Shown: positions 26,935 through 56,565 of the stretch, piece after piece | How the letters are laid out: every line of letters starts with the position of its first letter | Position numbering within the stretch: the stretch's first letter is position 1 | Origin: Candidatus Ozemibacter sibiricus | Lineage (GTDB): Bacteria; Muiribacteriota; Ozemobacteria; Ozemobacterales; Ozemobacteraceae | Assembly: GCA_003327425.1 (NCBI GenBank) | Contig: QOQW01000023.1 | Span: 1-64,000, forward strand | Length of the DNA stretch: 64,000 nt | Direction of reading: 5' to 3' | The notes under the pieces: model-generated | Told to the model about the DNA's origin: nothing | The model's input: the letters and a program-made list of their open reading frames with translations, nothing else | Database searches by the model: none | Program-made: the position numbers and the translations under genes

Positions 26935-28911
26935 TCAGTAGTAGTCGAAGTTCTGCTCCTTGCTGACCCAGCGCCGCACCACGAAGAGATTGGCCGGCTC
27001 GGCGGCGGGGTCGAGCTCGACGTAATTGCGCTCCCCTTTCCAGAGATAGGTCTTATCAGTGATCAGGTCATGCACCTGATAGGTGTCGTCGGGGCCGAAG
27101 CCGTACTGGGCGATCGGCACATAGACCCAGGAATGGTGCTTCTGGAAGGGATCGAGATTGACCGCCACCAGCACGTGATCATCGCCCAGCGACTTGCCGT
27201 AGAACAGAATGTGCTGATTGTCGCAGCGATAGAAGCGCAGGTTCTCGTATTCCTGCAGGGCGGGATGGGCGCGGCGCGCCCGATTCAACTTCGTGATCAG
27301 GTCTTTGATGTTGCCGGGGGCATTCCAGTCGCGCACCCGGATCTCGTATTTGTCGGAATTCAAATATTCTTCTTTGCCCGGGACGGGCTCGCCTTCGCAC
27401 AGCTCGAATCCCTGGAAGATGCCGTAGACCGGTGACAGCGTGGCCGCCAGCACCGCCCGGATCTTGTAGGCGGGTCGCCCGCCCCGCTGCAGGAAGGTGG
27501 GGAAGATATCGGGGGTGTTGGTGAACAGGTTGGCCCGCATGTAGTTGCAGACGGGCGGCGTGGTCAGCTCGGTGAAGTAGTCGATGATCTCCTGCTTGAA
27601 GTTGCGCCAGGTGAAATAGGAGTATGACTGGGTGAATCCGAGCTTGGCCAGCGCCTTCATCACCCGCGGTCGTGTGAACGCCTCGGACAGGAAGATGACG
27701 TCGGGGTAGACCGCCTGCACTTCGGCGATGAGCCATTCCCAGAAACCGAACGGCTTGGTGTGGGGGTTGTCGACGCGGAAGATGCGCACCCCCTTCTCGG
27801 CCCAGAACAGCAGGATCCGGCGCATCTCCATCCACATGCCTTCCCGGTCAGGGGTATCGAAGTTGAGGGGGTAGATGTCTTCATACTTCTTGGGCGGATT
27901 CTCGGCGTACTTGATGGTGCCATCGGGGCGATGGCTGAACCACTCAGGATGCTCCTTCAAGTAGGGGTGGTCGGGTGAACAGTTGATGGCGAAATCGAGG
28001 GCGATCTCGAGCCCCGCCTCTTGGCATTTCTTGACGAGCCGTGCGAAATCCTTCATGGTGCCGAGGGAGGGCTCGATGGCATCGTGGCCGCCGAACGAGT
28101 TGCCGATCGAATAGGGACAGCCTGGATCGTTCTTGCCCGCTACCAGCGAGTTGTTGGGCCCTTTGCGCTTGGTGAACCCGATCGGATGAATGGGCGGGAA
28201 GTAGAGCACGTCGAAGCCCATGGCTTCGATCTCGGGCAGCCGCTCTTCGACATCGCGGAAGGTGCCGCTCCTGCCTTTCTCGCGACCGCAGGAGCGCGGG
28301 AAGCATTCGTACCAGGCGGCGAAACGAGCCGCCACCCGATCGACCCGCACCCGGTAGACCGGCGATTGGACGCGGGTCGCCGCGTCGGGGTGGTCGGAGA
28401 GCGTTTTGACGAGATCGGGGGCGAGCAGGATCTGGGCGCGAGCCCGCGGATCCTGGTAGGACTCGGCCATCTTCAATTGGTCTTTGACGAACGCCTGCGG
28501 CTTCTTGGGCAGCCATTCGAGCGCCCGACGCGCCAGCGCCATGCCCTCGAGCACATCGCTGGCCACATCGACGTGGGCCTCGACCTTCTTGCGGGTATCG
28601 GCGGCCCAGGACCCGTAATGGTCGCAGAACGCCTCGATGGCGAATTCCATGAAGCCAAGCTCACCAACCGTGAACTCGCCCTGCCACTCGTCGAGGCCGG
28701 GATTGGTACAGCGCATGGGCGTCCGTTCCCAGGTCTTCTTGCCCTGCGGCCGCGACAGCAGCCAGGCCACGAGCTTGTCGTGCCCGTCGCGGAAGATGGC
28801 GGCCGTGACCTCGACCCGATCGCCCACCTCTCGTTTGATGGGGTAGCGACCGCCATCGACGGTCGGCTGGACATCTTCGATGAGAATGCGTTTGGAATCA
28901 GGGATCGGCAT
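26935..28911 (-). CDS. glgE: alpha-1,4-glucan:maltose-1-phosphate maltosyltransferase
   Basis: 658 residues, typical of GlgE (GH13_3). It adds maltosyl units from maltose-1-phosphate to the end of an alpha-1,4-glucan, with release of phosphate. The helical N-terminal domain is followed by the barrel. The nucleophile Asp381 in FRVDNPHTKP and the acid/base Glu410 in IFLSEAFTRP are 29 residues apart, as in characterised GlgE. The GlgE-specific HPYLKEHPEWF and VDRVAARFAAWYECFPRS are present, and no CBM48-branching features are seen. The start is set by AAGGAGAGGAA. It lies 56 bases downstream of the gene whose product would make its substrate. Confidence 0.94.
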   Translation of the reverse strand: MPIPDSKRILIEDVQPTVDGGRYPIKREVGDRVEVTAAIFRDGHDKLVAWLLSRPQGKKTWERTPMRCTNPGLDEWQGEFTVGELGFMEFAIEAFCDHYGSWAADTRKKVEAHVDVASDVLEGMALARRALEWLPKKPQAFVKDQLKMAESYQDPRARAQILLAPDLVKTLSDHPDAATRVQSPVYRVRVDRVAARFAAWYECFPRSCGREKGRSGTFRDVEERLPEIEAMGFDVLYFPPIHPIGFTKRKGPNNSLVAGKNDPGCPYSIGNSFGGHDAIEPSLGTMKDFARLVKKCQEAGLEIALDFAINCSPDHPYLKEHPEWFSHRPDGTIKYAENPPKKYEDIYPLNFDTPDREGMWMEMRRILLFWAEKGVRIFRVDNPHTKPFGFWEWLIAEVQAVYPDVIFLSEAFTRPRVMKALAKLGFTQSYSYFTWRNFKQEIIDYFTELTTPPVCNYMRANLFTNTPDIFPTFLQRGGRPAYKIRAVLAATLSPVYGIFQGFELCEGEPVPGKEEYLNSDKYEIRVRDWNAPGNIKDLITKLNRARRAHPALQEYENLRFYRCDNQHILFYGKSLGDDHVLVAVNLDPFQKHHSWVYVPIAQYGFGPDDTYQVHDLITDKTYLWKGERNYVELDPAAEPANLFVVRRWVSKEQNFDYY

Positions 28912-28967
28912 GGATGTTCCTCTCCTTGGTTGGTTCCTGCGATGTGGTGCCTCGATCGAGGACGGAT

Positions 28968-30188
28968 TCACCGCGTCCCCGCCTCTTTCGCCGCCAGGAT
29001 TTCCTGATAGTAGGCCAGGGTCTGCTGGGCGATGCTCGCCCAGCTGAAGTGGGCTTCGACCCGCTGCCGGCCCTTCCGGCCCATGGCCAGCCGGCGCGCG
29101 GGATCTCGGATGAGCGAGTTGATGGCCGCGGCGAGGTCGGCAGCATAGCGAGCGGGATCGAGCGCCTCGAAGGGGCTGGCCTTCATCTGTTCGAGCTTGA
29201 CCAGCAGCCCGGTCTCGTCATGCACCACCACTTCGGGAATGCCGCCCACGGCACTGGCCACCACCGGCACCTCGCAGGCCATGGCTTCGAGGTTGATGAT
29301 GCCGAACGGCTCGTAGATCGACGGACAGCAGAAGACGCCGGCATGCGAATAGAGCTGGATGAGGGTCGGCCGATCGACCATCTCGCGGATCCAGATGACG
29401 TTGCCGCGCTGCGCCGAGACCCGCTCGACGCCTTCCTGCATCTCCTTGGCGATCTCGGGGGTGTCGGGCGCCCCCGCGCACAGCACGACCGGCACGGTCG
29501 GGTCGATCTGCGGGATGGCGTTGACCAGGTGGATGATGCCCTTCTGGCGCGTGATGCGGCCGACGAATAGGACGTACGGCTGCGCGCCGAGGCCGAACCG
29601 CTCGAGCAGGCCGCGCTCCGGGGTTTTCCGGAAGGTGGCGATATCGATGCCGTTATGGATGATCCGGATCTTGTCGGGCGACACCTTGAAGTGGTTCAGA
29701 ATGTCGGCCTTGGTCTCGCGACTGACCGCGATCAAGCCGTCGGCCATCTCGATGGCGGTGCGCTCGACCCAGCAGGAGAAATCGTAGCCCCCCCCCAGTT
29801 GCTCGCGCTTCCAGGGGCGAAGCGGCTCGAGGGAGTGGGTGGTGAGCACCAGCGGAATGCTGTAGTTGAGCTTGGCCCAGATACCCGCCATGTGCGTGTA
29901 CCAGGTATGACAGTGCACGAGCTGCGCGTCGACGCCCATGCCGACGAAGCCGAGGTCGCGATCGAGGGTCGTCCAGACCGAGCGCAGCTCCTTAGGGGAG
30001 TGGGCGTAGGCATCGCGTGGCTGGAAACCTTTGACGCGAAGGCGTCCTTCCTGCGAGTCCTGGTCGCCATAGCACCGGACTTCGACATCGACCAGTCGCG
30101 CCATCTCGCGCGACAGGAACTCGATGTGGACGCCCGCCCCACCGTAGACCAGCGGCGGGTACTCGTTGGTGAAATAGAGCACCTTCAT
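28968..30188 (-). CDS. glgM: GT4 glycogen synthase / maltose-1-phosphate synthase (GlgM type)
   Basis: 406 residues, a GT-B retaining glycosyltransferase of the corynebacterial GlgA family, now known in mycobacteria as GlgM. Those enzymes make maltose-1-phosphate from ADP-glucose and glucose-1-phosphate and can also elongate glucan. Visible are the N-terminal YPPLVYGGAGVHIEFL, HTWYTHMAG, VLFVGRITRQKG, and the GT4 donor motif PSIYEPFGIINLEAMA. Being adjacent to glgE makes the maltose-1-phosphate role likely (inference). AGGAGG precedes the ATG. Two-gene operon with glgE ending in a strong terminator. Confidence 0.88.
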   Translation of the reverse strand: MKVLYFTNEYPPLVYGGAGVHIEFLSREMARLVDVEVRCYGDQDSQEGRLRVKGFQPRDAYAHSPKELRSVWTTLDRDLGFVGMGVDAQLVHCHTWYTHMAGIWAKLNYSIPLVLTTHSLEPLRPWKREQLGGGYDFSCWVERTAIEMADGLIAVSRETKADILNHFKVSPDKIRIIHNGIDIATFRKTPERGLLERFGLGAQPYVLFVGRITRQKGIIHLVNAIPQIDPTVPVVLCAGAPDTPEIAKEMQEGVERVSAQRGNVIWIREMVDRPTLIQLYSHAGVFCCPSIYEPFGIINLEAMACEVPVVASAVGGIPEVVVHDETGLLVKLEQMKASPFEALDPARYAADLAAAINSLIRDPARRLAMGRKGRQRVEAHFSWASIAQQTLAYYQEILAAKEAGTR

Positions 30189-31138: not shown

Positions 31139-33697
31139 ATGACATCCGCTGCCCACCGGCCATCCGATCACCGTCGCCTGCCCACGCTCCTGCCAGGGCA
31201 GACCGGGCGGGCGCGGCTTCTTCTCTGGTGGCTCCTCGCCTGCCTCGTCCTGATCTGGCCCGGCCAGGCCGAGGCCAACAAGGGCCGCGGCAAGCCCCCC
31301 TACGCCCAGGACCGCCGCCTTGATCTTTCAACGACCAGACCCACCACGCCCGCTCCCCCGGCCCCCCCCTCGTCAAGCTCGCCCTCCGGTCAGCCGGCTG
31401 GCTCGCCGCCCGCGCCCGCCCCACCAGCGCCGCTGCCGCCGCTGGCCATCCGCGAGGCTCGTCTCGCGTTGCTCATCGGCAACGGGGCCTACCCGACCGC
31501 TCCGCTGGCCAACCCCCTCAACGACGTGCGAGCCCTGGCCGCCACGCTCCGCTCCCTCGGGTTCGAGGTCATGGCCTACGAGAATCTGACCAAGCGGGGC
31601 ATGCGCGAAGCCCTCGCCGCCTTTGAAGATCGACTTCCCGGCAAAGACGTCGCCCTCGTCTACTATTCCGGGCACGGCATGCAGATCAAGGGCGAGAACT
31701 ACCTCGTCCCGATCGATGCCGACATCTCGCGCGAATCCCAGGCCGAGTTCGACTGCCTGAACGCCAACATGATCCTGACCGCCCTCGAATCCGGCAAGGT
31801 GCCGGTCAACATCGTGATCCTCGATGCCTGCCGGAACAACCCGTTCGCGCGCCGCACCCGCTCGACGGCCCAGGGTCTGGCCCGCATGGATGCCGGCACC
31901 CAGATGCTGATCGCCTTTTCGACCTCGCCCAACGATGTCGCGCAAGACGGCGACCCCGGCGGCAACTCGCCGTATCTGGCCGCCCTGCTGACCCACATCC
32001 GCACCCCGGGGTTGAGCGCGGAAAACATGTTCAAACGGGTCGGCTACGAAGTCTCGCAACGCACCAACGGCCAGCAACGCCCCTGGATCAACTCCTGCCT
32101 CTACAACGAGTTCGCCTTCGTGCCCGCTCCTCCCGGCAGCGTCGCTTCCGGCGCACCCTTCCCGATCCTGAACCTGCCCTTCGGTCAATCTCGGCCTGGC
32201 GACGCGAATTTCTGGGAATTCAGCAACCAGACCTGGGTCCTGCTCGGGGTGATCGCCCTTCTCTCGCTCATGCTCTTCCGCAGCCGCATGGGGCAGATCG
32301 CCCCCCCGGCGCCGGTAGCGCGGCTCACCCGCACGGCCATGATGCGCGCCGTCTCTCCCGAAGCCCTCAAAAAGCCGAAAAAATCACGCAAGGGCCCGCG
32401 CCGTTCCGCCGAACCCGCAGCTTCCCCCACCAGCGCCCCAGGGGCCCCCCAGCCGCCTGGGCCGACTGTTGCCAGCGGTTCGCCGTCGGCGACAGCTCCG
32501 ACATCGGCCGCCTCCCCGGCGCCACCGACCGCCGGCCAGCCCTCGCCAGGCCCCTCCTTCGACCCGAATGCGACGATCGTCCTGACGATTCCTCCCCACC
32601 TGGTGCGTTCCTCGGATGGAACACCGCCAGGCGCCGCGGGGGCGCCCCCGCTCCAATCGCCACCGGTGCCCCCCGCTGGCTTTCCCCCGCCGCCGCCCCC
32701 TCCCCCACCCCCACCGCCTTCGGCCTCCGGCCAGGTTGTGGCCTTCCCGCCAGCGACTGGCCCTGACCAATGGTCAGAGACCGACGACGAAGAAGAACCA
32801 GACTTGGAGGGCGCCGAAGCCCAACCGAGCGCGGTCGCCCCGGCGCCAGCACCCTTCCGTCGCTGGCGTTTCGCGCTCGTGGACGGCGCCGTCGCCCTGG
32901 GCCTGGCCCCGTTCTTCGGCGCTCGTTTCCATCAGGTCTACATGATGTTCTTCCGCACCACTCGCGCCTTCGACCGCGAGTTTTCCGAAGCCCTGCTGAG
33001 CGGGCTGATCGGCTTCCTGTTCATCTACTTCTGGTGGTTGGAGGGCTCTTCGCACGAGTACGAACGCCGCAACGGCTGGCGACTGGCCTTCTACCTGTTC
33101 CTGGTGGCCAGCCACCTGTCCAGTCGAGGGTTCGATACCGATTGGCTGGCCGGGCCCAGCCAACAACTGCTCGTGGCCACGCTCGTCTTCAAGTTCTGGA
33201 CCTACGTCGGGGCCCTGGTTCGAGGATTGCCTCGCCAGAAGGCCCTGTCCCTCCATTCCCTCGTGCGATGCGCGCTGTTCACGCCCCTGATCACGGTGGG
33301 CATCGTCTACGGCGCCCTTCCCGAAAGCAATGTCAGAATGTTTTCCCAGCATCCGGAAGTCTTGCTGACCGGGGTGTATCTGGCCTTGCTGATCATCTAC
33401 AAAACCATCAAAGTCTTGTACTACAACTTTACCGCCCCCACCCCGCCCGAAAGCCTGGCCAGCCGTGCCATCGACCTGTTCTTGATGGTCATCTTCACGC
33501 CCCTGGTCACCGCTGCCATCCTCAATCTTCTGGAGCAGGCCGGTCTGCCCCGCTCAACCTTCGAAATCGCGGCGTGCGTGGCCATTCCTGCGGTCTACGC
33601 GATCGGCCTGTTCGGCCTGGCGTTCCTCAATCTTCTGGCGTCTGGATTTTCGGCGACGCCGGCCTCAGCCGCAACCCCGCCCCACCACCCCCGCTAG
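31139..33697 (+). CDS. membrane caspase-like (C14) protein with a polytopic C-terminus
   Basis: 852 residues. A signal or anchor helix (about 26-45) and a Pro/Ser linker lead to a caspase/metacaspase p20-type domain (about 105-330). The catalytic His179 in VYYSGHG and Cys231 in VILDACRNNPF are intact. A second hydrophobic helix (about 364-378, WVLLGVIALLSLMLF) is followed by a 190-residue low-complexity linker with a run of about twelve prolines. The last 270 residues hold six to eight further membrane helices, faintly RDD-like. The protease domain would face the periplasm if the first helix is cleaved. Substrate and trigger are unknown. No clear ribosome site is seen at the ATG. Confidence 0.8.
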   Translation: MTSAAHRPSDHRRLPTLLPGQTGRARLLLWWLLACLVLIWPGQAEANKGRGKPPYAQDRRLDLSTTRPTTPAPPAPPSSSSPSGQPAGSPPAPAPPAPLPPLAIREARLALLIGNGAYPTAPLANPLNDVRALAATLRSLGFEVMAYENLTKRGMREALAAFEDRLPGKDVALVYYSGHGMQIKGENYLVPIDADISRESQAEFDCLNANMILTALESGKVPVNIVILDACRNNPFARRTRSTAQGLARMDAGTQMLIAFSTSPNDVAQDGDPGGNSPYLAALLTHIRTPGLSAENMFKRVGYEVSQRTNGQQRPWINSCLYNEFAFVPAPPGSVASGAPFPILNLPFGQSRPGDANFWEFSNQTWVLLGVIALLSLMLFRSRMGQIAPPAPVARLTRTAMMRAVSPEALKKPKKSRKGPRRSAEPAASPTSAPGAPQPPGPTVASGSPSATAPTSAASPAPPTAGQPSPGPSFDPNATIVLTIPPHLVRSSDGTPPGAAGAPPLQSPPVPPAGFPPPPPPPPPPPPSASGQVVAFPPATGPDQWSETDDEEEPDLEGAEAQPSAVAPAPAPFRRWRFALVDGAVALGLAPFFGARFHQVYMMFFRTTRAFDREFSEALLSGLIGFLFIYFWWLEGSSHEYERRNGWRLAFYLFLVASHLSSRGFDTDWLAGPSQQLLVATLVFKFWTYVGALVRGLPRQKALSLHSLVRCALFTPLITVGIVYGALPESNVRMFSQHPEVLLTGVYLALLIIYKTIKVLYYNFTAPTPPESLASRAIDLFLMVIFTPLVTAAILNLLEQAGLPRSTFEIAACVAIPAVYAIGLFGLAFLNLLASGFSATPASAATPPHHPR

Positions 33698-35870: not shown

Positions 35871-35893
35871 AAAAATCCCCCCTGGCCCAGGGG
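35871..35893 (-). terminator. terminator of the PAD-clostripain operon
   Basis: Minus strand: CCCCTG and CAGGGG pair around a 3-base loop, followed by GGGA and TTTTT. It lies about 100 bases past the stop at 35995. Confidence 0.5.
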
Positions 35894-35994
35894 AGAAGGC
35901 GTTTTTGTCGGCCAAAGGCATGGTCCCAGCTTTACATCGCAGAAAAGGGCACAACGGACCCTTCAGACCATGGCCGAACCAGAACCAGCGCTCA

Positions 35995-37461
35995 TCAATC
36001 GCCAGACAGCCAGCCCCGGCCGATTACAGCTTCGACCTCGGCCGCGCGCCCCCCTTCCGCTTGATGCACCGCCCAGAATCGGATCTGGGCCTGTCCGGCC
36101 GCGCCGACCTCGGGGTGAGAGCGGGCCAGTTGCTCCACGCGCCGCACCACTTCGGGCAAGGCGACGGCGCCCTCGGTCTCGAGGCGGGCGACTTCCTCGG
36201 ACATATCAAGCCAGGCATGGTAATGGGCCAGCCAGTCATCCCATTGCGACATCCGGGCGAATTCGAGGGTCTGGTAGGATGGCGAGCAGAATGCCGACCG
36301 GCTCGGGAAATAGATGGCCAGACCCTGACTATGCCGCAGATGGCCGCCCGTATGGTTCGCGCAAAGACGCGCCCGATCGAGGGCAATCCGTAGTTTTTCG
36401 AGAGCGGTGCGGATCGTCTCGTCGGTCAATCGACTTCCCAGCAAATCACCGAAATGGCCCAGATCGATGTGATCGCGGGCGGTGAACCGTTGCACCTCTT
36501 GCAGAACGCTCTTCACCACTGGCCCCGCGGCCGGGGTTGTCAGCAAGGCCTTGGCCAGGCCATTGACCGCGTCGAAAACGGCCGGCAGGTCGCGGCATCG
36601 CCAGGCCGACAGCGCCACCGGCTGCGGTTCTTTCTGCCGGTAGGATTCGAGATAAGTGTCGACCCAATGGCGGGCCAATTTCTCGGCATCGGCCCCGACC
36701 GGCAACCCACCCAGGAATCGGTCATAGGGAAACCCCGCCCGCGGCACCACTTCTTCCGACCCGATCAGCACGTCGCACCAGCGATGCACCGCCCAGGCCA
36801 CCTCGACCATCTGCATCAAGCAGGCATCGAACGCCACCACATCCAAGCGACGACCATGCCGGCGGGCGCCTTCCCGCAGGGCCAGACCAAGCTGGTCGGC
36901 GGTGATGAACGACCCGCTCGTATCATCGCTCGCGATCCCGCGCGTCGCCGCCCCCTCGGGGTGCTTCCAGCCCATGCCGTGGTTCCAGATGATGAGGGCG
37001 ATATGAGAGGCCGGCGCCAGCGCCAGGCCACGGTCCAGGAAGCGGGCCAGGGTCTGCCAGTCGCCCATGTCGGGCTCGGGGCCTTCTTCGTGGAGCCGAC
37101 GAACGCCCTTCGAGCATTCCCAGAGCTGGCTTCCTGAGGTGTTGGCCCGGTCGACCAGGATCAGCAATCGAACATGGGCCGGAACGCCATCCTCCATCTC
37201 CTGCAGATCGGCCTCGACAACGTCGTCAAGGTCATTGTCGCCGTCGAGGTAGACCAGGATGGTCCACTCAGGAATGGCAGCCGCGGGTTGGCCAGTCGCC
37301 ATGGCCCGACTGCGACGAGGCCCGCCGGCCGCCCAGGCGGGGGCCAGGGCGGTGCTGAGGAGCAGCACCACCACGAGGCCCAGCCCGAGGAAAGAGCGCC
37401 ATCCAGGCCCCTGCCGCGAGGGGGGGAAGTGGCCAGCAGGGGTCTGGACCGCGACTGACAT
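35995..37461 (-). CDS. exported clostripain-family (C11) cysteine protease
   Basis: 488 residues. The signal peptide spans about residues 22-45 (GLGLVVVLLLSTALAPAWAA). The C11 core starts at WTILVYLDGDNDLD. The catalytic His161 is in IIWNHGMGW and Cys214 in VVAFDACLMQ, both in the expected context. Clostripain itself cuts after arginine; whether this member does cannot be read directly. AAGGA lies 8 bases before ATG 37461. The gene starts 23 bases after the peptidylarginine deiminase gene, so the two are one operon of secreted, arginine-related enzymes (the shared specificity is inference). Confidence 0.88.
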   Translation of the reverse strand: MSVAVQTPAGHFPPSRQGPGWRSFLGLGLVVVLLLSTALAPAWAAGGPRRSRAMATGQPAAAIPEWTILVYLDGDNDLDDVVEADLQEMEDGVPAHVRLLILVDRANTSGSQLWECSKGVRRLHEEGPEPDMGDWQTLARFLDRGLALAPASHIALIIWNHGMGWKHPEGAATRGIASDDTSGSFITADQLGLALREGARRHGRRLDVVAFDACLMQMVEVAWAVHRWCDVLIGSEEVVPRAGFPYDRFLGGLPVGADAEKLARHWVDTYLESYRQKEPQPVALSAWRCRDLPAVFDAVNGLAKALLTTPAAGPVVKSVLQEVQRFTARDHIDLGHFGDLLGSRLTDETIRTALEKLRIALDRARLCANHTGGHLRHSQGLAIYFPSRSAFCSPSYQTLEFARMSQWDDWLAHYHAWLDMSEEVARLETEGAVALPEVVRRVEQLARSHPEVGAAGQAQIRFWAVHQAEGGRAAEVEAVIGRGWLSGD

Positions 37462-37484
37462 GGCGTCCATCCTTGTGGCGGTCG

Positions 37485-38807
37485 TCAATTGGAATCCTGG
37501 TGGAGGCGATCGAAGTTGGCGCGCAAGGCCGCGACCGCGGCAGCCTCTTGAGGAGTGATGAACGTGCGCTCGATACCGCGCCGGACATTGGTCCCGCAGT
37601 GGATCTGGCCGCTGTTTTGGTGAAAAGTCCGGTTATAGATGAAATGAACCTTGTTGCCCTGCGCCCGGAACCTGGCTTCGACCGCACGCTTGAAGGGCGG
37701 AAAGCAAGGTTCGGGGACGATCAGGTGATCGCGAAGCACCAGATGATTGGCAACCCCAGGCAGATTGGCCACGCACTGCACGACCGCATCCCCATTGTTG
37801 CTGTTGTGAAAGAGGGTGGGCCAGCTCACGACCGGAATTTCCAGATACGGTTGGTTCGTGATGGCGCGAATTCGCTTGATCAAATAGGCCACGTTGCGAT
37901 CGATGATCTCCGTGATCTTGCGATTGACCCGAATGTTCTGGGCCTGGGAGGTGTTGGTCCACTGGGCCGGATTGCGGAGAGCCGCCCGCAAACGCATGAA
38001 ATAGGCGCGATCAGAGCTGCCAAAATGGGCGAAATCTTCGTCGGTCGCCGATTCCAACAGATCGAGCGCATAACTCGGATCGGCTTTGACGATGGCGTAG
38101 CCGCAGGGAGAACGCCGACTGGGGATGAAGGAGAGATATTCATCCACATGACCCACGCGAAGCCACGAGGTCTCCAGTTTCACCGCCCGCCCACTGTAGC
38201 CGTGACGCAGCAAAAAGGACTCGCACGCACTGGTCATGGTATCGCCATAGTAGAGAATATTTTCAGGGGTGACTTCGATATTCCCGCCGTAATCCCCATC
38301 GCTGAAAGCCGTGCTGGGATTGATGAGATAGTCCTGCTGCCAGATGTTGGCCAGATGCGGCATCACCTTGGCCAGACCGCGACCGCGACGGGAATCGAAA
38401 ATGCCTTCTCGCCAGGTGCCGTCGCGCTCGATGGCGCAGAACTCGCCCATGTCCTGCATCCAGAAATCACTGATCAACAGGGTGGTATCGAACTCGCAAT
38501 ATTGTTTGATCCGCTCAACCGGATTCGGCAGCTTCGCCACCATATCCGCCGAGCTGACGAAGATATAGAGCTTGAAGGCATCGGAACCCACCAGGCCATC
38601 CTGCTCATGGATCTCGGCCACGGTATCGATCAAGTTGGCCACGATACTCAAGGTATCGGGAGTCAGCACCACCAGCACCTTCTTCGGCAGATGGCCATTG
38701 TGGCACAACCTGATGGTCTGCGCCCAGGCCTGGAACGCACCGAGAAAAACCAGGACGCCCGTCAAAACCAGGTACCGCCAATCAAGGGAATGGGGCAAAC
38801 GTCGCAT
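37485..38807 (-). CDS. secreted peptidylarginine deiminase (PAD) family protein
   Basis: 440 residues. The signal peptide (about 11-29) is followed by a PAD catalytic domain without the N-terminal immunoglobulin-like domains of animal PADs. The full catalytic tetrad is visible by comparison with human PAD4: Asp119 in WMQDMGEF, His220 and Asp222 in SWLRVGHVDEYLSF, and Cys404 in GQIHCGTNVRR. GGNIEVTPEN and LVLRDHLIVPEPCFPP also match. The predicted reaction is hydrolysis of peptidyl-arginine to citrulline and ammonia, outside the cytoplasm. Calcium-site residues cannot be judged here. It is distinct from the Porphyromonas PPAD, which belongs to the agmatine deiminase group. AAGGAGATAAGG precedes the ATG. 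Confidence 0.9.
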   Translation of the reverse strand: MRRLPHSLDWRYLVLTGVLVFLGAFQAWAQTIRLCHNGHLPKKVLVVLTPDTLSIVANLIDTVAEIHEQDGLVGSDAFKLYIFVSSADMVAKLPNPVERIKQYCEFDTTLLISDFWMQDMGEFCAIERDGTWREGIFDSRRGRGLAKVMPHLANIWQQDYLINPSTAFSDGDYGGNIEVTPENILYYGDTMTSACESFLLRHGYSGRAVKLETSWLRVGHVDEYLSFIPSRRSPCGYAIVKADPSYALDLLESATDEDFAHFGSSDRAYFMRLRAALRNPAQWTNTSQAQNIRVNRKITEIIDRNVAYLIKRIRAITNQPYLEIPVVSWPTLFHNSNNGDAVVQCVANLPGVANHLVLRDHLIVPEPCFPPFKRAVEARFRAQGNKVHFIYNRTFHQNSGQIHCGTNVRRGIERTFITPQEAAAVAALRANFDRLHQDSN

Positions 38808-38918: not shown

Positions 38919-38958
38919 CGAAATAACGAGAACCGGGACACGAGAGAGCGTGTCCCGG
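38919..38958 (-). terminator. terminator of the M48 protease gene
   Basis: Minus strand: a perfect 10-bp stem CCGGGACACG / CGTGTCCCGG with a 6-base loop, followed by TTCTCGTTATTTCG. It begins 28 bases after the stop at 38986. Confidence 0.75.
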
Positions 38959-38985
38959 CGGGAGGGCGAGGGGAAGAGCTGGTTT

Positions 38986-43889: not shown

Positions 43890-44486
43890 ATGACAGGTCA
43901 TCGATCCAACCAGGGTTCCGACAAGAGCCACCGCCTGCGGGAGGTGGCGCTCGAACTGTTCGCCCGACAAGGGTTCGAGGCGACCACCATCGACGATCTG
44001 GTGGTCGCGGCCGACTGCGGCAAGGGCACCTTCTATCGGTATTTCCCCAACAAAGAAGCCTTGCTCGACCAGCTCCTCGAGGATCATTTCGCCCGCCTGG
44101 GCGACGCCATCGAACAAGCGGTGACCGCCAATCGCCCCCTGCCCGACAAGCTGCTGGCGGCGAGTCGGGCCTACGTGGCAGTGGCGCGCCACGACCGGCA
44201 CCTGCTCCGCATCCTCGAAGAGGTCAAGGTCAGGATGTGTCATGACCTGGAGCAGAAGCTCTTCCGAGCGCTGACGCCCCAGTATGTCCTGCTCTGTTCC
44301 GCCATCGAGGCCGAGATCGCGGCCGGGCGATTCCGACCCCTCGCGCCGTCCTTGTTCCTGCTCGCCCTGCTCGGAGCGCTGCACATGCTGCTGTTCCGCG
44401 AGATCCGGCTGGGGCGCAAAGCCACAGACTCCGACCTCAAGCAGGTCTTGTCCATCATGTTGCAGGGAGCGATGACCACCCCATGA
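43890..44486 (+). CDS. TetR family transcriptional regulator
   Basis: 198 residues. The N-terminal helix-turn-helix is typical (VALELFARQGFEATTIDDLV, then GKGTFYRYFPNKEALL). The ligand-binding helical C-terminus is unspecific. It overlaps the outer-membrane gene by 4 bases, so it is co-transcribed with the three efflux genes and probably represses the whole operon through the palindrome at 43866-43881. The inducer is likely a pump substrate, unknown. There is no obvious ribosome site before the ATG. Confidence 0.92.
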   Translation: MTGHRSNQGSDKSHRLREVALELFARQGFEATTIDDLVVAADCGKGTFYRYFPNKEALLDQLLEDHFARLGDAIEQAVTANRPLPDKLLAASRAYVAVARHDRHLLRILEEVKVRMCHDLEQKLFRALTPQYVLLCSAIEAEIAAGRFRPLAPSLFLLALLGALHMLLFREIRLGRKATDSDLKQVLSIMLQGAMTTP

Positions 44487-46285
44487 CCAACCACCCGCGT
44501 GTTCGATGGCCCCGCGCCCTTCTGCCGGTCCGGCGCCCCCTCCTTCTGACGCTGATCGCCTTGTGGGGGCTGGTCGGCGAGGCCGCCCTCGCCATGAATC
44601 TGGCCGGGCTCGCCGAGCTGGCCCGCCAGCGCACGCTCTCGCTGAAGATGGCCCGGCTCGACCTGGAAGAGAGCTGGATCGACCAACGGATCGCCGACAA
44701 CACCTTCATTCCCAACGCCGAACTCGAATACCGACAAGGCCAACGCTGGCTCCTGGACCAGGACCAGAAACGCCTCTCGGGCTCCTTCCAGGGCACGTCG
44801 CTGTTCAGCCTCCGACTCAGCCAGGAGTTCCGGGCCCTGGGCAAATACAACGAGTGGCAGCGCGATGTCTCCCGACTGAAGACCCAGGTGCGGGAGCTGC
44901 TGCTCGAACGGGCCGAACTCGACGTCATGCGACGGCTGGTGCGTCTGTTCTTCCAATTGGTCAAGCACGAGGAGCTGGCCCGCATCCATCGCTTCAACCT
45001 GGGCTTGATCGCCCAGCTCCTCGACATCGGCCGGCTCAACCAGCAGGTGGGCCTGGCCCTGCAGAAGGACGTGCTGCGCATCGAGGTGCAGCAGGCCAAC
45101 ACCCAGGCTGCCCTGGTCCGGGCCGAGCATGATTTCGCCAACACCCGCTTCGACCTGGCCAACCTGCTGAACCTGCGCGATACCGCCTCCCCCGCGATCG
45201 AGCTGCCGCCCTCGCTGAAATATCCCCTGGCGCAGATCGACGCGACCGCGACCCGCGCCTTGCTGATGGAGCGGGACCTCGATCTGGGGCTGGCTCGCCT
45301 CGACCGCGCCATCGTCGCCAAGACCCTGACCGCGGGCCGGTCGGCCAAGAAACCGGCGCTCAACCTGACCGGCACCTACAACTACGCCCCGCGCAATGGT
45401 CCCTTCGCCTACACCCGCGATTTCACCGTCGGGTTCAGCCTGGTCGGCACCCTGTACGATGGCGGCGACAAGATGAACGAGGTGCGGCGCTATGAGAAAC
45501 TGCTGGCGAAGGCCGACCTGGCCCTGCAAGACCTGGAAGCCAGCAAGCTGCTGACCCTGGAAAAGGCCTTCTCCGACTACGACGAGGCGCGGCAGCGCAT
45601 CGCCTTCGCCGAAAAGGCCCTCGACCAGAGTCGCGAGAACATGCGAGTGGTCGGCATCCGGTTCAAAGCCGGCGATGCGCCGATCACCGACCTGGTCGAC
45701 GCCCAGATCACCTTTTCGGGCGCGGCCGAAACCGCGGTGAATGCCTATTATGACGAACGGGTGCGGCTGGCCGAGATCCTGCTGCTGACCAGGCAATTCG
45801 ACCGCGTCCTGCAGCTCGACCGCGGCGCGGCCCGCGCCATCGAACAGGCCATCGACCTGACCGGCGAGGAAGCCGGCATCTCGCCGGACATGCCAGCCAT
45901 GAACGGCTCTGCACCAGAAGCTTACCGGGGCGTCGCCGCGGAGCCGTCCTCCGAGCCCGCGCCCCTGGCACCACCGAACGGGCCGCGCCCCGCTTCATCG
46001 CCCGGGGCCAGGGCCGAGGGCGAACCGCCCTCAGATCGGCCTTCCCCGGCGTCGGCGACCACCACCTCCGCAGCGCTCCCTTCCGCTCCCACCGGCGCCG
46101 CGGCCGACCCGGCGCGGCCCGCCGCGACCATCGCCCCAGCCCTTCCTCCCCCCGGCGCCGCCGACCGACCGACCGACCGCCAGGCCACCCCGGGGAGCGA
46201 GGCGACCATGCCCCTCACGCCGCTGCCGGTGCCGGTGCCCGGCCCCTACGAAACCCCCGCCACGGGGAAGGAGACGACCCCATGA
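44483..46285 (+). CDS. TolC-family outer-membrane efflux protein
   Basis: 600 residues. After a signal peptide (about 20-38) two OEP repeats give long coiled helices (ELARQRTLSLKMARLDLEE; DLALQDLEASKLLTLEKAF) and beta strands (FTVGFSLVGTLYDGG). The fold ends near residue 460. The last 140 residues are a Pro/Ala/Ser-rich low-complexity tail that TolC proteins normally lack; it would sit in the periplasm. It forms the exit duct for the adaptor and pump encoded next. The start is coupled to tetR and the stop to the adaptor gene (both ATGA). Confidence 0.9.
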   Translation: MTNHPRVRWPRALLPVRRPLLLTLIALWGLVGEAALAMNLAGLAELARQRTLSLKMARLDLEESWIDQRIADNTFIPNAELEYRQGQRWLLDQDQKRLSGSFQGTSLFSLRLSQEFRALGKYNEWQRDVSRLKTQVRELLLERAELDVMRRLVRLFFQLVKHEELARIHRFNLGLIAQLLDIGRLNQQVGLALQKDVLRIEVQQANTQAALVRAEHDFANTRFDLANLLNLRDTASPAIELPPSLKYPLAQIDATATRALLMERDLDLGLARLDRAIVAKTLTAGRSAKKPALNLTGTYNYAPRNGPFAYTRDFTVGFSLVGTLYDGGDKMNEVRRYEKLLAKADLALQDLEASKLLTLEKAFSDYDEARQRIAFAEKALDQSRENMRVVGIRFKAGDAPITDLVDAQITFSGAAETAVNAYYDERVRLAEILLLTRQFDRVLQLDRGAARAIEQAIDLTGEEAGISPDMPAMNGSAPEAYRGVAAEPSSEPAPLAPPNGPRPASSPGARAEGEPPSDRPSPASATTTSAALPSAPTGAAADPARPAATIAPALPPPGAADRPTDRQATPGSEATMPLTPLPVPVPGPYETPATGKETTP

Positions 46286-47370
46286 CTCGCCGCTCACTGC
46301 TGCTCAACCGGGTTTTCCTCATCGGCTGGCTGCTGGCCCTGACCGGGGCGGGCGCGCCGGCCGGTCTGGCCGCCGAACCGGGCCGCCCCTCGGCGTCGGC
46401 GATGGCCTCCGAGCCGGTCACGGTGACCACGCATACGCTGGCCACCGGCACGATCCGGGATCGTCTGGCCTTCACGGGCGAGACCAAGCCGTTCGTCGAA
46501 ACCTTCCTGACGGCCGATCTCTCTGGCCGGATCGAGAAGATTCTCGTCGAGAACGGCGATGCGGTGACGGCCGGCCAGGTCCTGGTGACCCTCGAACGCG
46601 AGCGGTACCAGATCGCCCTCGACCAGGCCGAGGCCTCGCTGCGCATGGCCGAACAACGGGCCCGCGAGACCCGCAGCGATTTCGAGCGCACCAAAGTGCT
46701 GTTCGAACGCAAGGCGGTCAATGACAAGACGTTCGAAGCGGCCGAAACCGCCATGGTGCTGGCCGTCAGCCAGGTCAAACAGGCCCAGGCCGCCTTCGAA
46801 CTGGCCAAGCTGAACCTGGAGCGGTGCAACATCCGGGCGCCCATCACCGGCCATTTCGTGAACCGCAGCGGATTCATCGGCCAGGGCGTCAACCCGGGCA
46901 CCATTCTGGGCAAGGTGGTCGAGCTGAAGCGGCTGTTCGTCGAAGCCCGCATTCCCGAGCACCAGATCCGCGAGATCGCCGTCGGGCAGGTCTGCCAGAT
47001 CGAAGACCGCCCCGGCCGGGTGGCCCACATCGATCTGTATGCCGACAGCGGGCGCGGGTTCCTGGTGAAGATCCTGGTGCCCAACGACGACCTGCATTTC
47101 AAGGCCAACATGTTCGTCAAAGGGTTCGTGGTGCGGCGGGAATACACCGACGTGCCACTGCTGCCTCTCGAGGCCTTGCTGACCGACGAGACCGGCAGCG
47201 CCCTCTTCCTCGTCGAGGCCGGGCGGGCCCGCCGCCAAACGGTCGAGGTGCTGGCCCGCGAGGGAACGAACCTGTATGTCAAAGGCGTCGAGGCCGGCCA
47301 GGCGGTCGTCGTGGTCGGCCAGCATACCTTGCACGACGGGGATCCGGTCGCCCCCGTCGCGCGGCCGTGA
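46282..47370 (+). CDS. RND efflux periplasmic adaptor
   Basis: 362 residues with a signal peptide ending near GLAAEP. Lipoyl half-motifs (GRIEKILVENGDAVTAGQVL and CNIRAPITGHFVNRSG) flank a short coiled-coil hairpin (about 105-160). The beta-barrel and membrane-proximal domains follow. It belongs to the same HlyD/AcrA class as the gene at 1190 but has a shorter hairpin. It links the TolC-type channel and the RND pump of this operon. Confidence 0.92.
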   Translation: MTRRSLLLNRVFLIGWLLALTGAGAPAGLAAEPGRPSASAMASEPVTVTTHTLATGTIRDRLAFTGETKPFVETFLTADLSGRIEKILVENGDAVTAGQVLVTLERERYQIALDQAEASLRMAEQRARETRSDFERTKVLFERKAVNDKTFEAAETAMVLAVSQVKQAQAAFELAKLNLERCNIRAPITGHFVNRSGFIGQGVNPGTILGKVVELKRLFVEARIPEHQIREIAVGQVCQIEDRPGRVAHIDLYADSGRGFLVKILVPNDDLHFKANMFVKGFVVRREYTDVPLLPLEALLTDETGSALFLVEAGRARRQTVEVLAREGTNLYVKGVEAGQAVVVVGQHTLHDGDPVAPVARP

Positions 47371-47388
47371 GGGCGGCCCCCGACTCCT

Positions 47389-50697
<3,309 letters not shown>

Positions 50698-50825: not shown

Positions 50826-53642
50826 ATGGACTCCCCTGCCCTGGCCCCTTCCCGCAGCCGCCTCCGGCGCCTGCTCGGGTTCCTGCTGTTCGTGGCGGTG
50901 GGAGTGATCATTCCCGCCTGGTTGATGGAACACCTGCTCGACCGGTTCGACGCAGAGCGGCAGGAACGCCTGGAGCAATCGGCCTTCGATCGGGCCACCG
51001 CCCTGATGGGCCAGCTCGACCTCGGCCTGGAACGCAACCGCCTGATCGACGAGGGGCTGGCCCGGTTCCGCCGGCGGGCGGAAGCCGTCTTGCGCGGGCG
51101 ACCGCTGGATGCCGAGACGGCGGGCGTTCTGGCGCGGCGCGCGGCCCGGTGCTTCCCGCGGGACAGCATCCTGGTCTGGTTCGCCTCGAACGCTCGTCTG
51201 ATCGAACCGCGGGGGTTGCCGCCGCCCACCACGAAGCGGAGCTGGCAGGCCTTGTTCCGGGTGCTGCGCCGGGCGACCGACACCACCGAGGCCGAGCGCA
51301 CGCTCGCCGGCAATTTCCTCAAGGCGACGCTGGGCGAAATCATCGAGGTGGGCTATCTGCGACAGGCGTTCCGTGGGGCGCTGACGGTCCTGAAGCAGGG
51401 GAAGCCCCATGCGATCCGCATCTTGCGATTCGGGGCCGGGCCCCGCCGCCGGCAGACGGCTGGCTGGCTGCTGGCCTTGCTGCCTACCGGGCGGGCCCGC
51501 TTCGGCTGGGAGCTGGAGCGGCAGGTCCGGCGGCTGTCGCGCGACAGGACCGAGGTGGGGGGCTACTGGATGTCGCGCCAGCGCGGCCTGGGCGGCGAGC
51601 TGCTCAACGACAACCTGCTGCATGGGCTGGTGCTGCGCCTCGAACAGGGGCAGGGCTTTTCCCGGTGGCGGGACACAACCTGCCTGACGCGGTACTGGAG
51701 CCAGGATCCCGATCTGGTCCTGGTGGCGGCGGTTCCCCCCGCCCTGCTGCATGGGAGCCTCGACAGCCAGCGGCTCCTCCGCGGGCTGCGCTGGGGCCTG
51801 CGCGGCGGGGCGGCTCTGGCCATCGGGTGGGCCTTTCTGCTCGCCGCGGGCTGGCTGCGGTTGTCGCTGGCCGCCAAAGTCCGGTTGGGAACGATCTTCC
51901 TGGCCGGTTTCCCTTGTCTGGCCATGGGCGTCTGGGGACTGGGCCATCTGCTGCAAGTCGCTCAATTCCAGGACGATGAGGTGCGCAAACGGCTCGAACA
52001 TCTGCTGATCTCGGTCGAACAGGAAGTCGCGGCCACCATCTCCCGCACCCAGTCGGCGCTGGACCGCCTGCTCCGCTCCCCGGCCTACTTCCAGATCGAC
52101 ACCCCGGATGCCCTGCGCGAGGCCTTCCAGGATTTCGTGCCCATCGGGTTGTATGAAGTGATGCTGGGCCAACGGGGCCGGCCGGTGCTGTCGTACGCCC
52201 CCCATCTCTCCACCGACCGGACCGCCCTGCGCCATCCCCCCCACCTCGGGGCCCTGCTGCGCACTGTCATTCGCCAATCGGGGTTCGACCTCGGCACGGA
52301 AGGCGACCGCCAGGAGGCCGCGGGCGAACCCTTGCTGCCAGCCACCTTCGATCTGTCCCATCTGCCCCGCGACCAGCTGCATCTCATGCGCTTCGGCAAT
52401 GAAGCGGGCTTCTTCTTCTTCTCGCTGGTCGAAGATGAGCAGCGCCGCCCGTGGCGTGGCACCCTCCTGTTGCTCGATTTCCAGGTCTTCAGCCGCCAGG
52501 CCATGGCCGGCTGGCTGCGCCGCCGTCCCTCCGACCGCGCGGGGGTGTTCTTGCGCGGGCTGGGCGCGCGCGGAATCAGCCATCAGCCCCGCCATCGAGC
52601 CCTCCGTGCCCTGCTCGACCTGGCCGCCCACACCCGCGAACCGCTCTGCCAGCCGGTGGAACTGCGAGGGCGCCGGTATCTGGCGCTGGCGCGGCCGTTG
52701 GCCGGCCTGGAGACCATCGGCCTGGCCGTCCTGCCCTATGAGGCGGAAGCGGGCTTCCCGCGCGCCACCCGGCGCTTCATGCTGACCCTGGCCGGCCTCG
52801 CCCTGGCCGGCGCCCTGGGCGGGGCCGATCTGCTGCTCTTCCTCTTCCTGCGTCCGCTGCTCGGCCTGCGCACCCTGATCGAACGGGTCGAGCGAGGCGA
52901 CACCGCCGTCCGTTCGCCGCGCTGGCCCACCGACGAACTGGCCGACCTGGCGGAGGCCTTCAATGGGCTGGTGGCCAGCCTCGGCCAGAAAGAACGGATG
53001 AAGCCCTTCCTCAACCGCGACCTGCTCGAGCAGGTCCAGACCACGCCCGAGGTCAGGACCGAACGGCGCCGGGTGGTGGTGTTCTTCGCCGGCCTGCGGG
53101 AATTCAGCCGCCTCGAGCGACTGGTCCCTCCGGAAGAAGCGCTGCAGGCGATGAGCGCCTTCCTGGGGCGGGTCGAGGAGGTGGTGCGGCGGTGGGGAGG
53201 CGAGATCGACAAGTTCCTGGGCGACAGCGCCCTGGCCGTCTTCGTCGAAGAGGAGGGCGCCCGCGCGCCGCCCTGCGGGGAACGAGCGGCCCGGGCCGCC
53301 CTCGATCTCCAGCAGGAGATGGTGGCCTGGAACGCCGAGCGCGGCCGCCACGACCAGCCTTCGCTTCGTGCCGGGGTGGGACTAGCCGGCGGCCCCGTCA
53401 TCCGCGGGCATGTCGGCTCCTGGCGCAAACGGCTCGATTTCACGGTCATCGGCGATCCCGTCAACCTGGCCGCCCGCCTCGAGAAGCTGGCGGCGCGCCC
53501 GGGAGCCCCGCCGATCCTGGCGACCGACGAGGTGGTGAGCGGATCGACGCCCGGGTTGCGTCTGATTCCGACGGCCATCCAGACGGTGCGTGGCCGACAG
53601 GGAACGGTGACGGTGGTGGGAGTGGCTCCCGATGACTCCTGA
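50826..53642 (+). CDS. membrane class III cyclase, C2-like half (metal Asp missing)
   Basis: 938 residues. N-terminal helix (about 15-34), a large first region, a hydrophobic pair near residues 320-380, a sensor region, then a helix (about 642-670), HAMP linker and class III cyclase domain (about 740-935). Purine-contact Lys796 and Thr873, and Asn880 and Arg884 of VNLAARLE are all present. One metal Asp is lost, however: FAGLREF has Gly756 where FADIRGF is expected. The second, Asp800 in LGDSALAVF, remains. It would be inactive as a homodimer. It overlaps by 11 bases the next cyclase, whose losses are the opposite ones, so the two probably form a heterodimer. Adenylate versus guanylate specificity: Lys/Thr favours cAMP. 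Confidence 0.88.
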   Translation: MDSPALAPSRSRLRRLLGFLLFVAVGVIIPAWLMEHLLDRFDAERQERLEQSAFDRATALMGQLDLGLERNRLIDEGLARFRRRAEAVLRGRPLDAETAGVLARRAARCFPRDSILVWFASNARLIEPRGLPPPTTKRSWQALFRVLRRATDTTEAERTLAGNFLKATLGEIIEVGYLRQAFRGALTVLKQGKPHAIRILRFGAGPRRRQTAGWLLALLPTGRARFGWELERQVRRLSRDRTEVGGYWMSRQRGLGGELLNDNLLHGLVLRLEQGQGFSRWRDTTCLTRYWSQDPDLVLVAAVPPALLHGSLDSQRLLRGLRWGLRGGAALAIGWAFLLAAGWLRLSLAAKVRLGTIFLAGFPCLAMGVWGLGHLLQVAQFQDDEVRKRLEHLLISVEQEVAATISRTQSALDRLLRSPAYFQIDTPDALREAFQDFVPIGLYEVMLGQRGRPVLSYAPHLSTDRTALRHPPHLGALLRTVIRQSGFDLGTEGDRQEAAGEPLLPATFDLSHLPRDQLHLMRFGNEAGFFFFSLVEDEQRRPWRGTLLLLDFQVFSRQAMAGWLRRRPSDRAGVFLRGLGARGISHQPRHRALRALLDLAAHTREPLCQPVELRGRRYLALARPLAGLETIGLAVLPYEAEAGFPRATRRFMLTLAGLALAGALGGADLLLFLFLRPLLGLRTLIERVERGDTAVRSPRWPTDELADLAEAFNGLVASLGQKERMKPFLNRDLLEQVQTTPEVRTERRRVVVFFAGLREFSRLERLVPPEEALQAMSAFLGRVEEVVRRWGGEIDKFLGDSALAVFVEEEGARAPPCGERAARAALDLQQEMVAWNAERGRHDQPSLRAGVGLAGGPVIRGHVGSWRKRLDFTVIGDPVNLAARLEKLAARPGAPPILATDEVVSGSTPGLRLIPTAIQTVRGRQGTVTVVGVAPDDS

Positions 53643-56565
53643 GGCCAGGTTCTTCCGTTCCGACTCCCTCGTTCGCTGGCTGGGATGGCTGATCCTGGCG
53701 ATGGGGCTGGCCGCGTGGTGGCTGCTCGACCGGCTCGAACAGGCGCGGCACGACCTCCTCCAGGTGCATCGACGGGATGAGCTGCACGGCCTGCTGCCAT
53801 TGCTGCGGGCGCGTGACGACCCCGCCATGCTGACCGGCGAATTCCTGCGCGAGGCGGTCCGGCCCTGGCTCCGACGGGAGCCCGCCGCTCTCGTCCCCCT
53901 GCAGCATCGCCTGTCGGACCTGTTCGGTCAGCATCTCGCCCTGGCGGTGTTCGACGAGCAAGCGCGGGTGGTGACAGCGACCGGGTTCCCCTCGCGCGAC
54001 CTCCAGGGGCTCGGCGAACTGGCGAGCGGCCATCTCGCCCTCCTGAACGGGACGAGCTCATACACCGCGCGGATGGATGACCTCCAGATCCGCTTGTTCG
54101 GGACCTACAGCCTCTTGCGGAATGCCACCAGCATGGTCCTGGTCGAGCCGCAGACCTTCCAGGGACGGCCAGGGATGTTCCTGCTCGCGCTTCTGGCCTC
54201 GCAACCGGTCCGGCTGAGTCGACGGGTCCGCCTTCAGGCGAAGCACGATGGCCGCGGGGCGTCGGCCCCTCTCATCATCCCGCGCGGCGCTCTGGCGATG
54301 TTCGTGCCAGCGAGGTGCTATGAAGACCCGCAGGTGGCGGCCCGCCTGCTGACGAGCCCGGAATTGTCGGCGGTGCTGCCGATGTGGGCCGGACCGGCCA
54401 CCGCGAGTCTCGGTCTGCCCGACGCCGAACCGACCTTTGCCGGGGCCTTGCACCGGGCCATGGCCGTGGCCTCGCAAGGATCGGTCGTGACCGAGGCAGG
54501 CAGCGGGTGTTTCCTCCACTTGACCCGTCCCGCCGGTTGGGTCCTCGTGCATCATGGCCCGGGCGCGGCTGCCTGGCGGCTGGCCCGTTCGCCCTGGCTG
54601 CTGGCCGGAGCGCTCTTGCTGCTGGGCCGGCTGGGGCTGCTCTGGCGACGACGGTGGGCGGGCCAGGCCCGATGGCCCGGGGCGATGGCTCGGCATTTTC
54701 TGCAGATGGCGACGCTGGCCGGTCTGATCCCGACGCTCGGCCTGCTCTGGACCCTGTGGGCCCGGGCCACCCTCGATCGGACGACGGTTCGCGAAGATCT
54801 GTTCCGTTCCATGGAAATCCGGATGGAAACGTTGGAACAACGTCACAATCGTCGCCTGCAACAGGCGCTGACCGCCCTCAAGCGGTTCGTCGACCATCCA
54901 GGGTGGGCGGTCCCCCCTCTTTCGCCCGAGCGGATCGAGTCATGGATGGCAACCCTGGACGAGGCCATTCTCAAAGACGTCTACGTCGTCTCGCCCGGGT
55001 TGGCCGAACCGCTTTACGGCCGCGGCCGGGAGGCGAGCCTGCGGGAGGGGGGAGCCACCCCGACGGCGTCGGCCAAACTGGTCCCCTTCATGAAGTCCTT
55101 GCTGATGTACACCGCCAAGGCGCTGAAAATGGACCTCGTCACCGACGCCTCACGACCCCAGACAGGAATCCACCAGGATCTGCAAGGTGGCATGCTCTTC
55201 GAATACACCTTGCAAGGGGCCGGGCCGACCAACCTCCTGCGGTTGTTCGCGGAGACCGAACGGGTCATTCCCGTCGAGATGTTCGGCGAATCGACCTGGT
55301 CGTACGTCGCCATCGCCCGCCATCGGCGGCAGCAGCCTCAGCGGCTGATCTTCATCAACATGAACCGCGACCAGTTGCAGCGTCAGAACTTCCTCGCCTG
55401 GGTGCAGGAAGAAAACGAAGCGGAAGGTTTGTTTCCCCGGGCCGCCTTCATGACGTCCGCGGGGCAACCCTTCCCCTTCGTCTTTCCCGAATGGTCGGAC
55501 ACCTTCCCGCTGATCGAAACCATCCTGCGCCAGACCGCCCGGGAAAACGGCGTACAGCGGCTGATCCTGCCGCGGGCCGACGGGGGCCGCCTGCTCTGCC
55601 TGGCCCGCCCGCTGCGCGGCGCCGACTTCGTGGTGGCCCTGCTGCGCCGGCTGCCCGAGGACATTCCCCCGCGATCGGGTCAGGGAGTCGTCTGGGTGGT
55701 CCTTTTCTATCCTTTCCTGGTGCTGGGTCTGGCCGCCCTGCTCTTCCATGGTTTCCTGCTCAACCCGGTCAGAGAACTTCACACCGGCGTCAACAGCATG
55801 GCCGCAGGCCAATACGAGGTGCGATTGCCCGTGCTGACCGACGACGAGATCGGCGATCTGTGCCGCAGCTTCAATCGCCTGGCGGAAGGGCTGCGGGAGA
55901 AGGAATTCCTGCGACGCTTCATCTCCGATCTGACGATAGCCGCGGTGGAACGCGGCCAGACCGGCCAGACCGGCCAGGCGACCCGAGTGCCGGGGACGAT
56001 CCTGCTGGCCGACATCCGCTCTTTCACGACCCTGGCCGAGGAGCATACGCCCGAAGAAGTGGTCGAGATGCTGAACGGCTACCTGACCCAGATGGAAGTG
56101 CTGATCGAGAACCAGGGCGGCACCATCGACAAATTCATCGGTGACGCCATTCTGGCCGTCTTCCTGCCCGTGCACGGGCGCGACCATCCGGCCCGACGGG
56201 CCAGCCAGGCCGCGCTCGACATGATGCGCGGCGTCGACCGGTTCAACCGCGACCGCCAGCGCCGGGGGCGATTCCCCATCGCCATCGGGGTCGGCATCGC
56301 CACCGGCGACCTGCTGATGGGTCTGCTGGGCCGCTCGGACGGGCGCCGCGACTTCGCCGTGACCGGCCCTACCGTCAACCGCGCCGCCGCCATGGAGAAA
56401 TGGACCAAGCAGGCTCGCCACACCAAGGTGGTCGTCTGCCCGACCACCGCCGACCGGCTGGGCGAAGGCTGGGCCCTGGCCCCCCTGGCCGGCCCGGACG
56501 GCCAACCGGTGGGCTACGAGATCGCCGCCCGCCGCAGCTCGGCCGCGGCACCGGCGCTCGCCTGA
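53632..56565 (+). CDS. membrane class III cyclase, C1-like half (Arg and Thr missing)
   Basis: 977 residues. N-terminal helix (about 14-32), extracytoplasmic region, two more helices (about 320-380), sensor region, helix near 685-708, HAMP, a GQTGQTGQ linker made by a 9-base tandem repeat, and a cyclase domain (about 780-965). Both metal Asp residues are present (Asp794 in LADIRSFT, Asp838 in IGDAILAVF), as are Lys834 and Asn916. The purine-contact position is Ala909 and the transition-state Arg position is Ala920 (TVNRAAAME, not VNLAARLE). Alone it should not be a normal homodimeric cyclase. GGGAG at 53618-53622 precedes the ATG, inside the upstream gene. Confidence 0.9.
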   Translation: MTPEARFFRSDSLVRWLGWLILAMGLAAWWLLDRLEQARHDLLQVHRRDELHGLLPLLRARDDPAMLTGEFLREAVRPWLRREPAALVPLQHRLSDLFGQHLALAVFDEQARVVTATGFPSRDLQGLGELASGHLALLNGTSSYTARMDDLQIRLFGTYSLLRNATSMVLVEPQTFQGRPGMFLLALLASQPVRLSRRVRLQAKHDGRGASAPLIIPRGALAMFVPARCYEDPQVAARLLTSPELSAVLPMWAGPATASLGLPDAEPTFAGALHRAMAVASQGSVVTEAGSGCFLHLTRPAGWVLVHHGPGAAAWRLARSPWLLAGALLLLGRLGLLWRRRWAGQARWPGAMARHFLQMATLAGLIPTLGLLWTLWARATLDRTTVREDLFRSMEIRMETLEQRHNRRLQQALTALKRFVDHPGWAVPPLSPERIESWMATLDEAILKDVYVVSPGLAEPLYGRGREASLREGGATPTASAKLVPFMKSLLMYTAKALKMDLVTDASRPQTGIHQDLQGGMLFEYTLQGAGPTNLLRLFAETERVIPVEMFGESTWSYVAIARHRRQQPQRLIFINMNRDQLQRQNFLAWVQEENEAEGLFPRAAFMTSAGQPFPFVFPEWSDTFPLIETILRQTARENGVQRLILPRADGGRLLCLARPLRGADFVVALLRRLPEDIPPRSGQGVVWVVLFYPFLVLGLAALLFHGFLLNPVRELHTGVNSMAAGQYEVRLPVLTDDEIGDLCRSFNRLAEGLREKEFLRRFISDLTIAAVERGQTGQTGQATRVPGTILLADIRSFTTLAEEHTPEEVVEMLNGYLTQMEVLIENQGGTIDKFIGDAILAVFLPVHGRDHPARRASQAALDMMRGVDRFNRDRQRRGRFPIAIGVGIATGDLLMGLLGRSDGRRDFAVTGPTVNRAAAMEKWTKQARHTKVVVCPTTADRLGEGWALAPLAGPDGQPVGYEIAARRSSAAAPALA

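Follow-up and report, generated by a model that had tools for sequence, protein, structure and literature searches.

Organization of the PAD locus

The window analyzed here, a stretch of 64,000 nucleotides from Candidatus Ozemibacter sibiricus (contig QOQW01000023.1), contains a gene for a protein of the peptidylarginine deiminase (PAD) family and, immediately downstream, a gene for a clostripain-family cysteine peptidase (Table 1). The PAD open reading frame, for which the first-pass annotation had given coordinates without a strand, lies on the minus strand and extends from an ATG at position 38807 to a stop codon at 37487-37485. This start codon is favored over an in-frame ATG at 38894 because a strong Shine-Dalgarno sequence (AAGGAG) is found approximately 11 nt upstream of it. 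The translated protein begins with a signal peptide that had been noticed previously and is confirmed here in residues 1-29 by a heuristic prediction, comprising an RR pair, the hydrophobic core LVLTGVLVFLGA and a type I cleavage site between AWA and Q at residue 29. Signal-like N-termini are seen in the alignment throughout the clade to which the window PAD belongs, and the window PAD is most likely exported via the Sec pathway.

Table 1. Positions of features at the PAD locus, numbered from the first nucleotide of the window. Terminator-like sites in the region are just slightly more numerous than in shuffled sequence and are weak evidence for operon limits.
Feature	Position	Strand	Basis
Secreted single-domain PAD-type deiminase, 440 aa	37485..38807	-	ORF call, Pfam, phmmer, AlphaFold2, alignment
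Shine-Dalgarno region AAGGAG, 5' of the PAD start codon	38807..38819	-	Sequence read
Secreted clostripain-family (C11) cysteine peptidase, directly 3' of PAD	35995..37470	-	Pfam, alignment
Terminator-like hairpin with a stem of 11 bp, separating PAD from the M48 peptidase gene upstream of it	38932..38959	-	Terminator-site scan
Terminator-like hairpin 3' of C11, ahead of where the following gene probably starts	35876..35896	-	Consensus match only

The gene that follows C11 (34818-35954, minus strand) encodes a probable exported protein without a Pfam or NCBIfam match. Elsewhere in the window are genes for a GlgE-type maltosyltransferase (26935-28971, minus strand) and for a protein that combines a caspase (C14) domain with membrane segments and a proline-rich linker (31139-33697, plus strand). 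A TetR regulator gene heads a run that continues with genes for outer-membrane efflux, HlyD-type and AcrB-type proteins (43890-50697, plus strand), and two large proteins encoded in tandem both contain HAMP as well as adenylate/guanylate cyclase domains (50826-56565, plus strand).

Family assignment and domain content

The window protein matches the Pfam PAD profile (PF03068) with E=2.3e-26, placing it among proteins with a PAD_C catalytic domain, and human PAD4 with E=2e-14 in a phmmer comparison; a profile built from the family of the window PAD in turn recovers human PAD4 with E=3e-60. Given these E-values and the conservation of the family across genera, a chance match is excluded. An AlphaFold2 model calculated from a 34-row alignment (pLDDT 92.6, pTM 0.89) has human PAD4 structures as its best PDB matches in a Foldseek search (E=8e-24, TM 0.66 by query length), and all of its best 50 matches are animal PADs. 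By sequence, therefore, the window gene is a genuine PAD-family member that consists of the catalytic domain only.

The profile of the Porphyromonas type and agmatine deiminases (PF04371) gave no match to the window protein at a reporting limit of E=10, and an agmatine-deiminase identity was rejected on this ground. Together, the profile and fold comparisons bear out the earlier description of the protein as PAD-type rather than PPAD-type; the grouping with agmatine deiminases that had been named as the outcome counting against it was not seen, as judged from profile and fold alone. An enzyme acting on free arginine or agmatine in nutritional arginine breakdown would share the superfamily fold, but this reading is very improbable in view of the missing PF04371 match, the export signal and the retention of the PAD-type arginines that bind the substrate backbone (see below).

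Approximately 90 residues of the mature protein precede the active site residue Asp119, so the PAD_N and PAD_M domains are missing, in line with the absence of the animal N-terminal domains noted at first. PAD_M with its calcium sites Ca3-5, as well as a complete Ca2 site, is thus lacking from the window PAD, a feature that marks subtypes and not the family.

Active site and calcium ligands

The residues Asp119, His220, Asp222 and Cys404 correspond to Asp350, His471, Asp473 and Cys645 of PAD4, and none of the four varies among 34 aligned homologues. The catalytic tetrad is intact and had been numbered correctly in the first-pass annotation. Also invariant in the 34 homologues is Asn354, the equivalent of PAD4 Asn588, which has been listed as a catalytic residue (PMC4487231). 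The arginines of PAD4 that bind the substrate backbone, Arg372 and Arg374, are present as Arg141 and Arg143, with equivalents in 32/34 and 27/34 homologues, respectively, while PAD4 Arg639 and His640 are not conserved, a point that counts against the assignment. By analogy, Cys404 would attack the guanidinium group of the substrate, held in place by Asp119 and Asp222, with His220 serving as acid/base and Asn354 assisting, and the peptide backbone would be gripped by Arg141 and Arg143.

The calcium sites, for which a structural check had been proposed, were compared by alignment. All side-chain ligands of Ca1 (Gln118, Glu122 and Glu178) are kept and are present in 30-31 of the 34 homologues. 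Two ligands of Ca2 are changed, with Glu351 of PAD4 replaced by Met120 and Asn373 by Gly142, and Ca3-5 belong to the absent PAD_M domain. Because the Ca3-5 domain is absent and Ca2 is without its Glu351 ligand, a single calcium ion (Ca1) probably orders the active site, and we infer a simple, Ca1-only calcium dependence for this enzyme.

The adjoining C11 peptidase

The gene directly 3' of PAD, which the first-pass annotation had passed over, encodes a protein that matches the C11 profile PF03415 with E=2e-44. The gap between the two genes is 14 bp to an ATG at 37470 or 23 bp to an alternative ATG at 37461. The profile match, a His164/Cys217 dyad and the S1 residue Asp215 together place the protein in family C11, and dyad and S1 residue are conserved in all three PAD-linked C11 peptidases described below. 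Since an S1 Asp has been tied to cleavage after Arg/Lys in PmC11 and clostripain (PMC4850288), a P1 specificity for Arg/Lys is predicted. The partner also carries Arg177-Gly178 close to where autoprocessing takes place in PmC11, and all three partners have an Arg near there. Clostripain and PmC11 thus resemble the window partner in the dyad, the S1 Asp and a basic residue near the autoprocessing position, but their similarity to it is only distant and its specificity is a prediction from sequence. The AlphaFold2 model of the partner, based on two input sequences, is poor.

The PAD-C11 pair is found at three loci, namely in the window, at a second locus of the same genome (G000:C13) and in a congener (G002), with identical gene order and strand and a spacing of 6-23 bp. 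The second pair of the window genome is 58% (PAD) and 60% (C11) identical to the pair in the window. The genome (G000) has eight C11 matches in total, and those other than the two PAD-linked proteins share no more than 39% identity with the window partner and are without a PAD neighbor. Owing to this gap in identity the two cassettes look co-duplicated, and PAD-C11 looks like a two-gene cassette in which the pairing has been kept after duplication; with so few C11 genes per genome, chance would not be expected to place the two genes side by side repeatedly.

No PAD and C11 on one contig were seen among the matches listed for a further genome of the same genus (G001). In the loci fetched around PADs, a C11 HMM matched beside the three paired PADs alone, and the neighbors of the other PADs were varied, with no recurrent protease. 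The idea that PADs are generally linked to C11 was consequently rejected, as was membership of the upstream M48 peptidase in the unit, given that none is found beside the other two pairs. The three pairs, all from one genus, may descend from a single event, and the adjacency could then be one insertion passed on by descent, with the PAD acting alone. This incidental pairing, which agrees with the restriction to one genus and the varied neighbors of other PADs, is a possibility that we regard as rather unlikely, as order, strand and close spacing have been preserved at two loci despite divergence to about 58% identity. Among the papers searched, none contained both 'clostripain' and 'peptidylarginine deiminase', and the three containing 'clostripain' and 'citrullin' dealt, judged by title, with other subjects.

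Distribution and phylogeny of the PADs

The window genome has three PAD genes, the other two being L023 (G000:C13), with its own C11 partner, and L024 (G000:C7), without one. At least one PAD occurs in 19/24 genomes of the family Ca. Ozemobacteraceae, to which named relatives assign the window, and in 26/40 genomes of the phylum Riflebacteria. The earlier statement that such deiminases are uncommon in bacteria consequently holds overall, with PADs in 0.76% of species (PMC8826395), but not in this phylum.

L024 belongs to a group (with L026, L029, L033, L035, L036, L038, L039 and L041) that shows a common neighborhood in many genomes across genera, with a sigma-70 family gene 5' and an acetokinase and often a 3-hydroxyacyl-CoA dehydrogenase (3HCDH) gene 3'. 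A second, more diverged group of PADs (L049-L056) is present in several Riflebacteria genomes as open frames of ~490-570 aa with insertions. Short PADs also seem to be present in a few other sampled bacteria (e.g. L104), and hence the single-domain architecture is not exclusive to the clade of the window PAD.

In maximum-likelihood trees, which are unrooted and without fungal rows, the window PAD is a member of a Riflebacteria-centered clade (100/100) made up of metagenome-assembled genomes named Riflebacteria, Cloacimonadota, Wallbacteria, Muiribacteriota and Oligoflexia. Human PAD4 groups with cyanobacterial PADs (82/52 for the fork) on the opposite side of the 100/100 branch, and the actinobacterial PADs lie on the same side as PAD4. 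Forcing PAD4 into the clade of the window PAD was marginally rejected (AU p=0.048), and forcing it together with the window trio was rejected (AU p=0.017). A special kinship with animal PADs is therefore unsupported by the tree, and so is any special connection of the window PAD to the origin of animal PADs, which the first-pass annotation had brought up: as its clade is separate from the animal and cyanobacterial PADs, the window PAD says nothing special on that origin.

Like the animal and cyanobacterial PADs (PADI1-4; clade Ai, PMC8826395), the window PAD has the PAD_C fold, the tetrad with its Asn, the Ca1 ligands and the Arg372/Arg374 pair, and it differs from them in being exported and in lacking PAD_N, PAD_M, Ca3-5 and the Ca2 ligand Glu351. 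With the two-domain PADs of actinobacteria and fungi (clade B) it has the PAD_C domain in common, but clade B PADs carry a divergent PAD_M (PMC8826395), which the window PAD does not, and the actinobacterial sequences compared lie across the 100/100 branch. Cummings et al. describe PADs of three-domain and two-domain type, and their text mentions neither Riflebacteria nor a single-domain secreted PAD (PMC8826395).

Discussion

At this locus, the pairing of the two genes is of greater interest than the PAD itself. The extracytoplasmic enzyme of simple architecture proposed in the first reading is upheld by sequence and model as regards export signal and domain content, with protein citrullination as its presumed activity. 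In our judgment it is likely that this single-domain exported deiminase, probably dependent on Ca1, is produced bicistronically with a C11 Arg/Lys protease and most likely cooperates with it. Such a bicistron would bring the deiminase together with a secreted peptidase of predicted Arg/Lys specificity, so that both would attack one type of residue beyond the cytoplasm; C11 would create or expose arginines that PAD then converts, the targets being polypeptides of the envelope or the extracellular space. C11 need not be a requirement for the deiminase, as other PADs in the phylum have no C11 neighbor.

The fact that one residue would be targeted by both tightly paired enzymes is also consistent with antagonism, in which PAD converts arginines so that the partner protease cannot cut them, either shielding proteins that the producer itself exports or blocking autoactivation of C11 at the candidate site Arg177-Gly178. 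The conserved Arg near the autoprocessing position of all three partners fits such a role, but the other C11 proteases of the genome manage without an adjacent PAD, and we regard antagonism as unlikely.

Most of what is known about secreted protein citrullination in bacteria comes from the PPAD of Porphyromonas, an enzyme unrelated to animal PADs. Gingipain R and PPAD, which act in tandem (PMC9559808), resemble the window pair in combining a secreted deiminase with a secreted clan CD Arg-specific cysteine protease. However, PPAD is a calcium-independent enzyme of the agmatine-deiminase type (PMC4487231) whereas the window deiminase is of the PAD type, and gingipains belong to family C25 whereas the partner here, with its gene adjoining PAD, belongs to C11. 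Functional convergence could extend to substrate choice, with the PAD acting as an exodeiminase on C-terminal arginines freed by its predicted Arg/Lys protease. In support, PAD4 Ser468, which leaves room for a C-terminal extension and is Tyr233 in PPAD, corresponds to Arg217 in the window PAD and to Lys or Gln in the other paired PADs. This position varies widely in the clade, though, with Arg also found in three sampled unpaired PADs, and was rejected as an exodeiminase marker; moreover, PAD-type sites normally take internal arginines (PMC4487231), so that exodeiminase action, too, appears rather improbable.

Tandem action of the kind seen with gingipain R and PPAD, a protective link and an incidental one may all be compatible with the sequences. 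Returning to cooperation, we would put forward, with considerable reserve, that PAD and C11 constitute a secreted system which arose independently of gingipain R and PPAD and, like them, couples Arg proteolysis to citrullination, through an exported single-domain PAD that requires just one calcium site. The pairing, if true, would be a second, independent tie of Arg-specific proteolysis to citrullination, and the two genes are of a size that suits expression and ordinary assays. Furthermore, an exported, catalytic-domain-only PAD that is common in an uncultured phylum would offer a naturally minimal enzyme in which the need for each calcium site could be examined.
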